From Thiosulfatihalobacter marinus (GTDB lineage Bacteria; Pseudomonadota; Alphaproteobacteria; Rhodobacterales; Rhodobacteraceae), in contig NZ_JAECRZ010000003.1 of assembly GCF_016019955.1 (NCBI RefSeq), positions 108,892 to 172,891 of the forward strand: a stretch of 64,000 bases of DNA, in the 5' to 3' direction. The notes under the pieces were generated by a model. It was not told the DNA's origin, made no database searches, and saw only the letters and a list, made by a program, of their open reading frames with translations. Below are positions 14,091 through 57,847 of the stretch, one piece after another (position 1 is the stretch's first letter; every line of letters starts with the position of its first letter). Position numbers and translations under genes: made by a program.

Positions 14091-14122
14091 CAAACAAAAA
14101 AGAGCCCGGAACAAGTCCGGGC
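14091..14122 (-). terminator. Intrinsic terminator of the CenR-like gene
   Basis: A 7-bp stem (GCCCGGA/TCCGGGC, 14104-14110 and 14116-14122, loop ACAAG). Read on the minus strand it is followed by TCTTTTTTGTTTG. It is 160 bases downstream of the response regulator stop. Confidence 0.75.
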
Positions 14123-14281
14123 CCAGTCCAACAGGGAGGTGCATATCATAACCCGGATATGCGCGGGATCCGTACAACCTGCATATAAGGTACTCCCCAT
14201 ATGCCTCTTTGATTCATATCAAGGACTTCAACACCCTGTCACCTGCCTGTTGCCAAATTGTTGCAAACTGCGACATCCACG

Positions 14282-29153: not shown

Positions 29154-29224
29154 GAACCCCGTATCCAGGGCCGGGTTTTCCGCGTAACCTGATGCGGATC
29201 GCCTGTGTTTGGGAAACCCGCGCC

Positions 29225-30424
29225 ATGCAGACACGCCCCGAAATCACGGCCGCTGTCGTTGCGGGCTGTCTCGTCGCCTTCATCAGCTTCGGCTTTGCCG
29301 CCACCTTCGGCGTATTCCTGCGCCCGATGTCGCAAGAGCTTGGATGGGGACGCGAGGTGTTTTCGCTGTCGATGGCAATCCAGGCCCTGTGCTGGGGCCT
29401 GACCCAGCCCCTCGCCGGCATGGTCGCCGACCGCCATGGCACCGCCCGCGTGCTCGGGTTTGGCGCGGTGGTGGCGGCGCTTGGGTTCTTCCTGCGCGGC
29501 ACCGTGATCGACCCCGCCATCTTTGTCGCCTCGGGCGTGATCGTCGGGATCGGAACCGGCGCCTGCTCGTTCCCGGTGGTGATCATCGCGCTGGGCAAAG
29601 TCGTCACCCCGCAACAACGCAGCTTCGTGCTTGGCCTTGGCACCGCCGCCGCCTCGACCGGCATGTTCGTGGCCGCGCCGCTTTCGGCGCTGTTCCTGCG
29701 CGTGGTCGGATGGCAAAGCGCGATCCTGCTCATCGCGGCCAGTTTCCTGTTGATCCTTCCGGCGCTGGTGTTCATCGCGCGGGTGTCGCAGCCCACGGCG
29801 GCCGGGGCCGGGGCCGCCGGGTTCGGCCATGCGCTGCGCACCGCCTTTGGCGACCGCGCCTTCGTGCTGCTGTTCTTCGGCTTCTTCGTCTGCGGCTTCC
29901 ATGTCGCCTTTATCCAGACCCACCTGCCGGCCTATATCGCCGACCGGGGGCTGGCCCCGGCCATCGGCGCCTGGTCGCTGGCGCTCATCGGGCTGTTCAA
30001 CATCGCCGGGTCTTTCCTTTCGGGCTGGTCCGGCCAGCGTCACTCCAAGAAAACCGTGCTGGCGGGTATCTATGCCGCGCGGGCGGTGATCATCGCGGCC
30101 TTCATCCTGATCCCGCTCACGCCAGCCAATGTCTACCTGTTCTCCGCCGCGATGGGGCTGCTCTGGCTTTCGACCGTGCCTTTGACCACCGGGCTGGTCG
30201 CACAAACGCAAGGTCTGCGCTTTCTGTCCACGCTGGCCGGTCTGGTGTTCTTCAGCCACCAGACCGGCGCCTTCATCGGCGCCTGGCTGGGCGGACGGAT
30301 CTACGACGCGACCGGGGACTACACCGCGATGTGGTGGGCCGCGGTTGCGCTGGGGCTGCTGGCGACGCTGATCCACCTGCCGATCCGCGAATCCCCCGGG
30401 CCGCTGGCGCAGTCCGACCCATAG
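29225..30424 (+). CDS. MFS transporter
   Basis: A protein of 399 residues with 12 predicted membrane helices. The loop between helices 2 and 3 reads GMVADRHGTARVLGFG, the major facilitator motif. The helices are rich in Gly and Ala, and FGVFLRPMSQELGWGRE resembles the oxalate/monocarboxylate-type subfamily (MFS_1). The substrate is unknown. I chose the ATG at 29225 (MQTRPEITAAV); an ATG 33 bases upstream is also possible. It is a single gene whose 3' end faces the enoyl-CoA hydratase gene across the 11-bp repeat array. Confidence 0.88.
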   Translation: MQTRPEITAAVVAGCLVAFISFGFAATFGVFLRPMSQELGWGREVFSLSMAIQALCWGLTQPLAGMVADRHGTARVLGFGAVVAALGFFLRGTVIDPAIFVASGVIVGIGTGACSFPVVIIALGKVVTPQQRSFVLGLGTAAASTGMFVAAPLSALFLRVVGWQSAILLIAASFLLILPALVFIARVSQPTAAGAGAAGFGHALRTAFGDRAFVLLFFGFFVCGFHVAFIQTHLPAYIADRGLAPAIGAWSLALIGLFNIAGSFLSGWSGQRHSKKTVLAGIYAARAVIIAAFILIPLTPANVYLFSAAMGLLWLSTVPLTTGLVAQTQGLRFLSTLAGLVFFSHQTGAFIGAWLGGRIYDATGDYTAMWWAAVALGLLATLIHLPIRESPGPLAQSDP

Positions 30425-30482: not shown

Positions 30483-30563
30483 ACCGACGCAATGCCGACA
30501 CGATACCGACGTTATGCCGACACGGGGTTTTCCCGCGATTTCAGCCTGTTAATCCATGATTCG
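30483..30563 (+). repeat. 11-bp-period tandem array with conserved flank, copy 1
   Basis: Four successive 11-base units, ACCGACGCAAT, GCCGACACGAT, ACCGACGTTAT and GCCGACACGGG (30483-30526), then a CGCGATTTC block and GTTAATCCATGATTCG (30548-30563), which contains a GANTC methylation site. A second copy lies at 57136-57215 in the opposite orientation with the same array-to-flank spacing. Both copies lie between convergent genes. No hairpin or coding potential explains the period. Confidence 0.85.
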
Positions 30564-30612: not shown

Positions 30613-31224
30613 CTATCGGCACAGCGCCTTGATGCCCCTCGCGACGCCCGGATCGGCGGCCAGCGTGTCGGCGGCAATCTCGCGCGCCGCCTCCAGCAGC
30701 GTCTCGCGCTCCACGATCCGGTCCACCAGCCCGAACCCCAGCGCCTCCTCGGCGTTCAGCTTTTGTCCCCCCATCAGGACCAGCCGGGTGCGCGCCGGCC
30801 CGATCAGCGCCGCCATCCGCGCCGGATCAGAGGGTTGTGGCAAAAACCCAAGTTTCATAACGGGATAGAAGAACTTCGCCCCCGGCACCGCCAGCCGGAT
30901 ATCACAGGCCAGCGCCATGCCCATGGCGCCCCCGGCCAGGGTTCCGTTCAGCGCCGCGATGGTCAGGCCCGGCAGCGCCGCGATGGCGCCTGACAGCCGT
31001 TCCCAAACGTCGCTCCCGGCCAGTCCGGCGCGCGCCTCGTCCAGGTCGGCGCCGGCGGAAAACACTTTGCCCGCACCGGTCAGGATCAGCACCCGCGCCT
31101 CTTGCGCGCCCTCGGCGATCCCGGCCAGCTCGCTCAGCATGTCATGGGTCAGGGAATTGGCCTTGTCGGGCCGGTTGATCGTCACGATCCAAAGCCCGTC
31201 CGCACCCTTGACCAGATCGATCAT
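30613..31224 (-). CDS. Enoyl-CoA hydratase/isomerase family protein
   Basis: A protein of 203 residues of the crotonase fold: VTINRPDKANSLTHDML near the start, GAGKVFSAGADLDEA and NGTLAGGAMGMALACDIRLA, the oxyanion-hole signature. It is shorter than typical hydratases (about 260) and lacks most of the C-terminal helices. One of the two catalytic Glu residues is not obvious, so hydratase activity is uncertain. Its ATG overlaps the stop of the SDR gene (ATGA), suggesting a small acyl-CoA or alcohol pathway. Confidence 0.88.
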   Translation of the reverse strand: MIDLVKGADGLWIVTINRPDKANSLTHDMLSELAGIAEGAQEARVLILTGAGKVFSAGADLDEARAGLAGSDVWERLSGAIAALPGLTIAALNGTLAGGAMGMALACDIRLAVPGAKFFYPVMKLGFLPQPSDPARMAALIGPARTRLVLMGGQKLNAEEALGFGLVDRIVERETLLEAAREIAADTLAADPGVARGIKALCR

Positions 31225-55465: not shown

Positions 55466-56617
55466 ATGATCGCAATTGGAGACACAATCCTTGGCCCCCT
55501 CGAACTGACCGCGCTTGGCATTGCCGCGCTGGTCCTTGTTCTGTTGCTGATGACCGTGCGTGCGGCGGGGCGATCGGCCCGCATGGCCGAACCGCTGGCG
55601 CATCAGATGGGCGCGCTGGGGCAGCGGGTACAGGCGCTGGGGGACGGGCAGCAACAGCTTGCCGGCGGGTTGAATCAGGTGGTCGAAAGCCAGGCCGCCG
55701 CACAGGCCAACCTGTTGCAGCACCTGGAAAAACGCCTGGCCCAGGTAAACCAGCAGATGGGAGAGAACCTGCAAGGATCCGCGCGCCGCACCGCCCATTC
55801 GCTGGGCGAATTGCAGGAGCGGCTCAAGACCATCGACAAGGCCCAGGAAAACATCACCCGCCTGTCGGGTGACGTGCTGAGCCTGCAAGACATCCTGTCC
55901 AACAAACAGACCCGCGGCGCCTTTGGCGAGATCCAGCTGAACGATATCGTGTCCAAGGCGCTGCCCGCTGACAGCTACAAGCTTCAGCATACGCTGTCCA
56001 ACGGCAAGCGCGCGGATTGCCTGATCCATCTGCCCAACCCGCCGGGACCGATCGTGATCGACAGCAAGTTTCCGCTAGAGGCCTATGAGGCGCTGCGCAA
56101 TGCCGGGAACCAGGCGCAGCTGAACGAGGCCGCGCGCCTGTTGCGCACATCGGTCAAGAAACACATCAAGGACATCTCGGATCGCTACATCCTGGAAGGC
56201 GAAACCGCCGATGGTGCGCTGATGTTCCTGCCCTCCGAGGCGGTTTATGCCGAGCTGCACGCGAATTTTCCCGAGCTGGTACGCGAAGGGTTTGCCGCGC
56301 GGGTGTGGATCGTTTCGCCCACCACCTGCATGGCCACGCTGAACACGATGCGGGCGATTCTCAAGGATGCGCGGATGCGCGAACAGGCCGGGGCGATCCG
56401 GCGCGAGCTGGGCCTGCTTTATTCCGATGTCGAGCGGCTGGGCACCCGTGTCGAGAATCTTGACCGGCATTTCGGACAGGCGGCAAAGGATATTTCGGAT
56501 ATCAAGATCAGTGCCGACAAGGCCGGGCGCCGGGCGCGGCGGCTGGATAATTTCGATTTCGAGGAACTGGCGCCCGAAGAAAACAAGATCGTCCCGCTGA
56601 CCAAGCCTGACAGTTAG
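55466..56617 (+). CDS. rmuC: DNA recombination protein RmuC
   Basis: A protein of 383 residues with one N-terminal membrane helix (13-32), a Gln/Ala/Leu-rich coiled coil (about 40-130) and the RmuC nuclease-like domain: TRGAFGEIQLNDIVSKALP, VIDSKFPLEAYEAL, HIKDISDRYI and MFLPSEAVYAEL. RmuC limits some inversions and recombination events; it is anchored to the membrane. I chose the ATG at 55466, which follows AGAGGGA. It is 84 bases after mutL on the same strand and may share its transcript. Confidence 0.94.
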   Translation: MIAIGDTILGPLELTALGIAALVLVLLLMTVRAAGRSARMAEPLAHQMGALGQRVQALGDGQQQLAGGLNQVVESQAAAQANLLQHLEKRLAQVNQQMGENLQGSARRTAHSLGELQERLKTIDKAQENITRLSGDVLSLQDILSNKQTRGAFGEIQLNDIVSKALPADSYKLQHTLSNGKRADCLIHLPNPPGPIVIDSKFPLEAYEALRNAGNQAQLNEAARLLRTSVKKHIKDISDRYILEGETADGALMFLPSEAVYAELHANFPELVREGFAARVWIVSPTTCMATLNTMRAILKDARMREQAGAIRRELGLLYSDVERLGTRVENLDRHFGQAAKDISDIKISADKAGRRARRLDNFDFEELAPEENKIVPLTKPDS

Positions 56618-56804: not shown

Positions 56805-57131
56805 ATGCTGGAAATCACCCCTTGGAAAGTAGCGCAGGTGGTGTTGATGTCCCGGGAGCTGAACCGGGCCGAAGGCGAGCTGCGCGGGTTCATCGAGCGG
56901 CTGAACGAGGATGAACAGGCCAGCCTTGTCGCGATCATGTGGATCGGACGGGATGCGTTCGCAGCGGACGAGCTGGCCGAAGCGATCAACACCGCCAAGA
57001 CCGAGGCCACCACGCCAACAGCCGATTACCTGTTGGGCACGCCGCACCTGTCGGATCATCTTGAGAACGGCATGGAAGAGCTGGGCATTTCCCTGTCGGA
57101 TGAAGAGGATGATCTGGTGCGGCGCGGCTAG
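56805..57131 (+). CDS. DUF3775 domain protein
   Basis: A protein of 108 residues with AGGAGG 6 bases before its ATG. It starts MLEITPWKVAQVVLMSRELN and contains EASLVAIMWIGRD-like text (ASLVAIMWIGRDAF) and LLGTPHLSDHLENGMEELG. This acidic, mostly helical family is widespread in alphaproteobacteria with no known function. It has no signal peptide. It stands alone between rmuC and the second 11-bp repeat array. Confidence 0.88.
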   Translation: MLEITPWKVAQVVLMSRELNRAEGELRGFIERLNEDEQASLVAIMWIGRDAFAADELAEAINTAKTEATTPTADYLLGTPHLSDHLENGMEELGISLSDEEDDLVRRG

Positions 57132-57135
57132 GGGC

Positions 57136-57215
57136 GCGAATCACGGTTAACGCCCCGAAATCGCTGAAAAATACCGGATCGGCATTGCGTCGGTATCACG
57201 TCGGTATTGCGTCGG
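57136..57215 (-). repeat. 11-bp-period tandem array with conserved flank, copy 2
   Basis: Read on the minus strand: ACCGACGCAAT, ACCGACGTGAT, ACCGACGCAAT and GCCGATCCGGT (57215 down to 57172), then CAGCGATTTC and GTTAACCGTGATTCG (57150 down to 57136), with a GANTC site. The distance from the array to GTTAA is the same 32 bases as in the copy at 30483-30563. It sits 5 bases after the DUF3775 stop, between convergent genes. Confidence 0.85.
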
Positions 57216-57268
57216 TGTAGCAGCGCGGAAATCGCGGGATTAACGGCCCGCGCGCCTGTCGTTGCATT

Positions 57269-57847
57269 TTATCGCGCCGGCATCAGCCAGGCATCGAGAT
57301 ACTGTGCCAGCCGGGCGCGCAGGTCGGTGTCGTTATGCAGCGCGCAGAACTTCAGCGCCATTGCCTGCACCGCGAAGGCCTGGATACCCTCGGCCAGCAG
57401 GTCGCCCGCCACGTCCTTGCGGAACGGGCCGCGTTCCAGCCACGGTATCATGATCTCGATCTGGCGGCCGAACGTGGTGGCGATGGGGCCGATTTCGGCG
57501 CGGGCCGCGGCCCCCGAATGGCGCAGGATCACGTCAAACACATAGCGTTCGCAGGTCATGAACCGCAGCAACGGCATCAGCGCATCCGTCACCTGAGCGG
57601 CGGTGCGCGGCGGGTCAGAGGTAACCATACGGTCAAGAATGGAATCCATCCGCGCCCCGATCAGCAGGTCCATCAGCGCATCCTTGTCCGGGAAATGCGC
57701 AAAGAACGTGCCCTTGGCCACCCCGGCCTGCTGTACCACCTGTTCCACGCGCAGCCCCTCGAAACTGCCCGCATCAATCACCTCTTGCGCCGCGGCGACC
57801 AGGCGGGCGCGGGTTTCCAATCTGCGTTTCTGAACGGCTCTGGCCAT
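57269..57847 (-). CDS. TetR-family transcriptional repressor
   Basis: A protein of 192 residues. The N-terminal helix-turn-helix reads GLRVEQVVQQAGVAKGTFFAHFPDKDAL. The rest is the helical ligand-binding domain. I chose the ATG at 57847 (MARAVQKRR). It is divergent from an NAD(P)H:quinone-type oxidoreductase, with three copies of a palindrome between them, so it almost surely represses both genes until a ligand, perhaps a quinone or electrophile, binds. Confidence 0.93.
   Translation of the reverse strand: MARAVQKRRLETRARLVAAAQEVIDAGSFEGLRVEQVVQQAGVAKGTFFAHFPDKDALMDLLIGARMDSILDRMVTSDPPRTAAQVTDALMPLLRFMTCERYVFDVILRHSGAAARAEIGPIATTFGRQIEIMIPWLERGPFRKDVAGDLLAEGIQAFAVQAMALKFCALHNDTDLRARLAQYLDAWLMPAR

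Follow-up and report, generated by a model that had tools for sequence, protein, structure and literature searches.

Dispersed, polar arrays of 11-bp repeats in Rhodobacteraceae genomes and a putative ribbon-helix-helix partner protein

Comparison of a 64,000-nucleotide stretch of Thiosulfatihalobacter marinus DNA (the window; part of contig NZ_JAECRZ010000003.1) with the rest of its genome and with the genomes of its relatives reveals a family of short tandem arrays, mostly of four 11-bp units, that are dispersed in tens of copies. Computation gives their copy number, their period and unit number, a polarity that follows replication, an even spacing, positions conserved between species, co-occurrence with a gene for a PF14384 protein, and the presence of an array just upstream of that gene. 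We propose that an autoregulated ribbon-helix-helix (RHH) protein binds these scattered, polar arrays and that they mark the chromosome for its organisation or segregation, a reading to which we assign a probability of about 0.6. The parts of this proposal differ in strength. From the sequence comparisons, binding of the arrays by the PF14384 protein is very probable and regulation by that protein of its own gene is probable, and a chromosome-organising role for the arrays stands at roughly even odds. Genomes, contigs and loci are designated by our own G, C and L numbers, G000 being the window's genome.

The window holds two copies, both built on the same plan of a four-unit array followed by a flank (Table 1). 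Three units of copy 1 are strong and the fourth, GCCGACACGGG, is degenerate. Both copies are flanked by convergent gene pairs, for an MFS transporter and an enoyl-CoA hydratase at copy 1 and for DUF3775 and TetR-type proteins at copy 2. The spaced pattern RCCGAC-N5-RCCGAC, with no more than one mismatch, occurs eight times in the window against 3.07 expected, a number reached by none of 100 shuffles (the largest gave 7), and six of the eight matches are supplied by the two arrays. When the window was searched against Rfam the arrays matched no family. A SorX sRNA (RF02784, 81.4 bits) was found in the window at 14097-14169 on the minus strand, unrelated to the arrays.

Table 1. Coordinates of the two arrays, their flanks and neighbours, and of genes discussed in the text. 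Positions are those of the window unless a contig or locus is named.
Feature	Position	Strand	Remarks
Copy 1, array of four 11-bp units	30483..30526	+	units ACCGACGCAAT GCCGACACGAT ACCGACGTTAT GCCGACACGGG
Copy 1, flank CGCGATTTC	30534..30542	+	similar flank in part of the copies
Copy 1, GTTAATCC	30548..30555	+	CtrA-half-site-like box; CtrA motifs as quoted in an excerpt of PMC6180460
Copy 1, TGATTCG	30557..30563	+	GANTC site, +75 from first unit; fits YGAKTCG as quoted in an excerpt of PMC7987155
Copy 2, array of four 11-bp units	57173..57216 (read 57216 to 57173)	-	
Copy 2, TTAACC box	57145..57150	-	
Copy 2, GATTC (GANTC)	57138..57142	-	+74
MFS transporter gene (PF07690)	29192..30424	+	left of copy 1; context only
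Enoyl-CoA hydratase gene (PF00378)	30613..31224	-	right of copy 1
rmuC (PF02646)	55466..56617	+	near copy 2
DUF3775 gene (PF12616)	56805..57131	+	left of copy 2; context only
TetR-type gene (PF00440)	57269..57820	-	right of copy 2; context only
PF14384 gene (rhh) of the window's genome	G000 contig C11:24297-24617		outside the window
REP-associated tyrosine transposase (RAYT) gene downstream of rhh	L373, L374, L380, L383, L385, L390, L394; fragments L403, L409	same as rhh	

Copy 1 as a BLAST query has 41 matches in the window's genome, and a sequence-only model built from 43 of its copies finds 78 that score at least 35 bits, the next score being 22 bits. A degenerate pattern of unit pairs gave 64 + 88 matches, and a pattern of the same kind read backwards gave none. 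Arrays of four units predominate (61 of the 78 copies, and 55 of 60 in the relative G003). It is the array that holds the information, the flank motifs being weak and movable, and no consensus RNA structure or base pairing was found for the arrays.

Using our own gene calls, 75 of the 78 copies lie outside called genes. Both neighbours could be classed for 73, of which 29 are in convergent, 38 in co-directional and 6 in divergent intergenic regions; the other five comprise three inside called genes and two at ends. The background was taken as all 97 intergenic regions of at least 110 bp in the window and 220 kb of G003, among which 11 are convergent and 35 divergent. Relative to this background the arrays avoid divergent regions (6/73 versus 35/97) and prefer convergent ones (29/73 versus 11/97; P = 2e-5 each), and the arrays of G003 follow the same trend, with 17/55 convergent (P 0.004) and 5/55 divergent (P 0.0002). 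The first-pass annotation of the window had described the repeat as a row of protein sites sharing one helix face, which is supported, and had held that it is not a promoter, which is likewise supported for the two window copies in their convergent settings. It had named, as outcomes that would refute it, a restriction of the element to these two loci or its conservation only as part of a known transposable element or a coding exon; the number of copies and their location outside called genes speak against both. Finally, it knew of no named element of this kind, and neither the Rfam search of the window nor the open-access literature has supplied one: the exact array sequences have no match in open-access full texts, and searches of open-access work on Rhodobacteraceae or Roseobacter repeats, KOPS and nucleoid proteins turned up no description of the element. 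The polarity, the spacing and the candidate partner protein described below were beyond the reach of that first annotation.

The orientation of the arrays is closely related to replication. With the array itself masked, the array strand has a negative GC skew at 75 of the 78 loci in the window's genome and at 53 of the 60 in G003. At the first 43 loci of the window's genome the skew is also negative at third codon positions, in genes of both directions, so the polarity reflects replication and not transcription; loci of other genera are weaker in this respect, with negative skew at oppositely facing genes in only 76 of 110. Nor is the polarity simply that of the word ACCGAC, which outside arrays is distributed 85:47, a bias that the 75/78 of the arrays exceeds (P 3.5e-11). 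The leading strand is the G-rich strand, and at those 75 loci the ACCGAC strand of the arrays is the C-rich (lagging) one; the complementary GTCGGT therefore points from origin to terminus.

Contig C1 of G003 (2.38 Mb) contains a switch in this orientation. A single switch near 1.53 Mb, the best of 238 positions, fits 50 of its 57 copies with seven exceptions (corrected P about 5e-7). The GC skew reverses at 1.48-1.49 Mb. GGGCAGGG, the orientation of which was examined in G003:C1:1370000-1589999 (L353-L363), turns between 1,492,810 and 1,498,909, with 16 forward copies to the left, 19 reverse copies to the right and none the wrong way around. This turning point is likely the position of dif and the terminus; a simple scan of the terminus region found no dif-like 28-mer. 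The turn (about 1.48-1.50 Mb) falls inside a 129-kb gap (~1.41-1.54 Mb) that has no match to the model and lies between the last minus and the first plus copy. Pairs of parS sites were located in the window's genome (contig C60) and in G003 (contig C4). On C60 the nearest arrays to the left and right of parS are oriented as expected and two of the other four are not, and on C4 the polarity near parS is not clean. On the single 3.6-Mb contig G307:C1 the local GC skew changes sign many times and the arrays turn with it, the picture expected of contigs assembled without regard to their direction or of a heavily inverted chromosome; G307 was left out of the switch test.

The arrays are also spaced more evenly than uniform placement predicts, a null model that ignores gene positions. 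The 63 gaps in the window's genome have a coefficient of variation of 0.56 versus 0.94, with none of 5000 simulations being as even, and only 5 gaps are shorter than 10 kb where 14.0 are expected (P 0.0014). For G003, which has 101 matches extending down to 18.7 bits and in which two copies 1 kb apart were merged, the coefficient is 0.67 versus 0.96 (P 0.0002), with 3 gaps shorter than 10 kb against 19.9 expected and, after merging of that close pair, none shorter than 5 kb. The distance from array to array is some 30-50 kb.

Many positions are common to the two species. Comparison of the 78 and 60 loci gave 37 pairs with common flanking genes, including a few second-gene or paralogue matches, and the G003 unit has drifted in concert, with ACCGACGTTTT and GCAGAC units. 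The array beside the enoyl-CoA hydratase orthologue is kept in G003 (L291), and two records, one named Sedimentitalea (L137) and one Roseobacter (L177), also have an array next to their orthologue of rmuC. The odhB-lpdA locus was compared across 25 genomes (190 bp upstream, with genes named by eye): the array is intact in G000, G013, G023, G014 and G003, partial in G015, decayed in G012 and absent from 15 genomes, and three were not parsed. The decayed copy in G012, a genome that lacks the PF14384 gene described below, scores 24/33 versus a lowest score of 27 among the 78 copies of the window's genome; G012 and G004 each retain a single copy, scoring 29/33 and 28/33 respectively, no worse than the weakest of those 78. 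A different intergenic repeat (approximately TTCATTTTGGCC..AAATACTCCGGGGGAGTC..GGGGCAGCGCCCCC) is present in the odhB-lpdA spacer of L328, L330 and L336, either before the array or alone. One array of the window's genome (L244) has no counterpart at its place in the G003 terminus gap, and in this one case examined for a clean empty site other genes are inserted there and no relic was found.

Within the genus, a pattern search gives at least 21 matches in 21 of 24 genomes and none or one in the other three (G004, G008 and G012), and among 16 other genomes of the class two have one match each. Among the matches listed from a public genome collection, the titles name Rhodobacterales genera (the matched genera being ones that we place in this order) or Rhodobacteraceae or Rhodobacterales bacteria, and two metagenome-assembled genome (MAG) titles say only Alphaproteobacteria. 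Of 394 family genomes, 36 match a drift-tolerant model with E values no higher than 0.001; under stricter filters, with about 15 candidates scored per genome, 25 of the 394 have six or more arrays, and the distribution is mostly all or none. Distant blastn searches with copy 2 gave no match in 72,556 plasmid records and none in phage records. Arrays in L061, L062, L066 and L084 were excluded from models, alignments and neighbour clustering.

Clustering of the genes that adjoin arrays identified a small protein that recurs at L257 of the window's genome, at L166 (the array of which is identical to that of the genus member G018) and at L128 (a record named Sedimentitalea). Two of these three proteins were scanned and both match PF14384, with 43.8 and 48.8 bits against a cut-off of 26.1, a family which we take to be that of BrnA-type antitoxins with an RHH fold, and we refer to the gene as rhh. 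It was found in 22 of 25 genus genomes and is missing from exactly G004, G008 and G012. Across the 24 genomes with both measures (G433 has no array count) it is present in 21 of 21 array-rich and in 0 of 3 array-poor genomes, a fit that has a chance of 1 in 2024 if the genomes are independent, although kinship means that this is overstated. An array on the opposite strand lies 68-101 bp before the rhh start codon in 17 of the 22 genus genomes, with a score of 28 or more, a level reached by one of 400 control windows; four genomes (G013, G002, G433 and G011) have rhh without an upstream array, and G022 was not classed. The rhh gene of G016 (L377), counted as present, has an in-frame TAG that leaves 89 aa, and this genome has 49 matches to the array pattern.

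The association extends to the family. An rhh match of at least 94 bits is present in 28 of the 394 genomes, the next match having 71 bits, and 19 genomes have both arrays and protein, six have arrays only, nine have the protein only and 360 have neither (Fisher P 1e-20, with thresholds, including that of six or more arrays, that were set after the data were seen). The array-rich genomes with no strong rhh orthologue, judged from at most 11 scored candidates per genome, are G094, G119, G215, G219, G304 and G325. Upstream of the 28 family rhh loci the usual unit is present in 17 and another 11-bp unit in eight more, so that in sum repeats precede rhh at 17/22 genus and 25/28 family loci; the three family loci with no upstream array are those of G324 and G223 and a fragment in G380. 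In eight of the nine protein-only genomes it is a different 11-bp unit, with cores such as TCCGA, CATAC or TGTAC, that lies 54-141 bp upstream. Scored by matches at a lag of 11, six of these eight alternative units reach 17/22 and the other two 15/22, levels seen in one and in 15 of 574 upstream controls, respectively. In G074, which has rhh, the surrounding 400 kb contain a single YCCGAC array, the one before rhh itself, and the protein therefore exists without dispersed sites, at least there. To judge from the sequences, array-based autoregulation may be the older state, with dispersal derived.

Clustering of the neighbours in 48 rhh loci of about 3 kb gave no conserved downstream partner gene; the commonest upstream neighbour, thioesterase-like by eye, is present in 18 of the 48, and no BrnT-like neighbour was noticed by eye among the conserved clusters. 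A sequence search of the PDB with the RHH profile gave nothing convincing, and a structure prediction from two sequences, with a mean pLDDT of 47.7, was set aside.

The flanks had been linked in the first-pass annotation to CcrM methylation through a GANTC site and to CtrA through GTTAA words. For the window's genome this link is statistically real: GANTC occurs at +55..+95 in 50 of 78 copies against 5.1 expected, with 36 of the 54 sites in +45..+100 lying at +72..+75 and 37 of the 54 fitting YGAKTCG, and TTAACC occurs at +40..+75 in 44 of 78 against 0.2 expected. In other genera GANTC falls at +73..+75 in 24 of 45 sites (115 loci), and TTAACC recurs. The link does not hold generally, however. 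In G003 GANTC is not enriched (5/60, 3.4 expected) and TTAACC is weak (5/60, 0.3 expected), and in G307 GANTC is again not enriched (2/22, 1.3 expected), with TTAAC enriched upstream instead (11/22). Since GANTC is not enriched and TTAACC is scarce in G003, the flanks are not the core of the element. Excerpts of published work quote YGAKTCG for Caulobacter GcrA promoters (PMC7987155) and TTAACCAT as a CtrA variant (PMC6180460).

These enrichments, in the window's genome and in other genera, and the fit to YGAKTCG are what would be expected if CtrA, CcrM methylation and GcrA act at the TTAACC/GANTC flank with the array as an accessory. Such a module is nonetheless improbable as the explanation, given that arrays persist in G003 and G307 where GANTC is not enriched and that the array is far more strongly conserved than the flanks. 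The 11-bp period itself recalls response regulators of the OmpR/PhoB type, which bind direct repeats of about 11 bp, but it is hardly credible that the arrays are operators of this class: they are not concentrated at promoters, avoiding divergent and preferring convergent regions, their polarity tracks replication rather than gene direction, and the protein with which they co-occur is an RHH protein and not a response regulator. That they are polar guides for the FtsK translocase, similar to KOPS, seems very improbable. They do share the polarity of GGGCAGGG, toward the terminus, but GGGNAGGG, which we take to be the KOPS-like motif, has a polarity of its own and occurs at high density around the terminus, so that the task of KOPS looks filled; moreover, no array was found in the part of G003 nearest the terminus (about 1.41-1.54 Mb), and most sampled family genomes have no arrays.

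Rather more can be said for the arrays being remains of a mobile repeat that spread by way of the single-stranded DNA of replication forks, with a REP-associated tyrosine transposase (RAYT) as one possible agent and with the RHH protein regulating only that operon. The polarity would follow if insertion took place into the template of the lagging strand, and relatives of the RAYT enzyme are described as lagging-strand-targeting in an excerpt of PMC6006769. At 7 of 48 loci rhh is followed on the same strand, 84-1089 nt further downstream, by a RAYT gene (NCBIfam NF047646; the two tested score 168 and 162 bits), and at two more by fragments of one (ends from tblastn). Recurring flank types in the window's genome look by eye like copied modules. 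The RAYT copy in L373 carries an in-frame stop. We nevertheless consider this origin unlikely. In L128 and L383 the RAYT has its own REP-type hairpins, which carry GTAG/CTAC feet, and in L394 none were seen; the arrays, by contrast, have no consensus structure, inverted matches from flank to flank at the 78 loci of the window's genome are at the level of controls, and the one REP-type hairpin pattern searched for has no match in the 78 + 60 loci. Furthermore, 39 of the 48 rhh loci have no RAYT within the 0.8-1.5 kb examined, and the even spacing, the conserved positions and the decayed copy after gene loss are not expected from mobility alone. RAYT is a candidate for how the arrays were spread.

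Comparison with known systems shows that the arrays resemble a dispersed-site chromosome system but could be assigned to none of those compared. The matS/MatP, SBS/SlmA and NBS/Noc systems each consist of dispersed sites of one protein, and these sites are palindromic, non-polar and regional. The arrays share with them a dedicated, here putative, protein with dispersed chromosomal sites, but are polar direct repeats along the chromosome arms; neither are they confined to the terminus as matS is, being spread over G003 C1 with a gap there. Like the KOPS/FtsK and AIMS octamers they are oriented by replichore and point to the terminus, but they consist of four 11-bp repeats, number tens per genome, are evenly spaced and lineage-specific, and differ in sequence from GGGNAGGG, which is present as well and separately polar. 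With REP/REPIN-RAYT elements they have in common that they are extragenic, lineage-specific and in many copies, sometimes with a RAYT nearby; they differ in that no palindrome or hairpin was found, in having many positions common to two species and in their even spacing. Membership of the BrnA family (PF14384) is indicated by both tested proteins passing the Pfam cut-off, although no neighbour resembling the BrnT toxin of BrnTA was noticed by eye among the clustered genes and the arrays are dispersed. The closest parallel in plan is ParR-parC of type II plasmid partition (ParMRC), in which, according to excerpts of two papers, an RHH protein binds direct repeats of 10-11 bp (11 bp in R1 parC) and represses its own operon (PMC5016525, PMC9426499). 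An RHH-class protein, tandem direct repeats and an array upstream of the binder's gene are common to both. Here, however, the chromosome carries tens of arrays at scattered places, most with four units, no linked ParM or motor gene was seen among the clustered neighbours of the 48 rhh loci, and copy 2 has no BLAST match among the plasmid records.

We therefore return to the proposal that the arrays are binding sites of an autoregulated RHH protein. Each array would accommodate about four RHH dimers, head to tail along a single face of the DNA. The solitary PF14384 protein would be the one that binds, and would repress its own gene through the array just upstream. The other copies would form a chromosome-wide set of sites at intervals of some 30-50 kb, with GTCGGT pointing from ori to ter, and when bound would give the chromosome a directional marking used in its organisation or segregation, with the protein-DNA complex met from one side by whatever moves from ori to ter, be it a loop extruder, a translocase or a fork. 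A more specific version, which we offer tentatively and regard as rather doubtful, is a bacterial counterpart of a polar insulator, in which an antitoxin-family RHH protein recruited from simple autoregulation coats the evenly spaced one-way arrays and stops or steers an SMC extruder or a fork, and in which GANTC methylation and CtrA boxes tie occupancy to fork passage in some lineages.

Not many systems are known in which a dedicated protein and its sites label the whole of a bacterial chromosome. The arrays and their putative RHH partner would add one that has polarity and even spacing, has been lost in part of a genus and involves a protein of an antitoxin family. The genomes G012, G004 and G008, which are without the system, and the G074 lineage, which has the gene and no dispersed sites in the 400-kb sample, are ready comparisons, and bear on the passage from a local repressor to a system spanning the chromosome and on whether arm-wise direction signals are needed.
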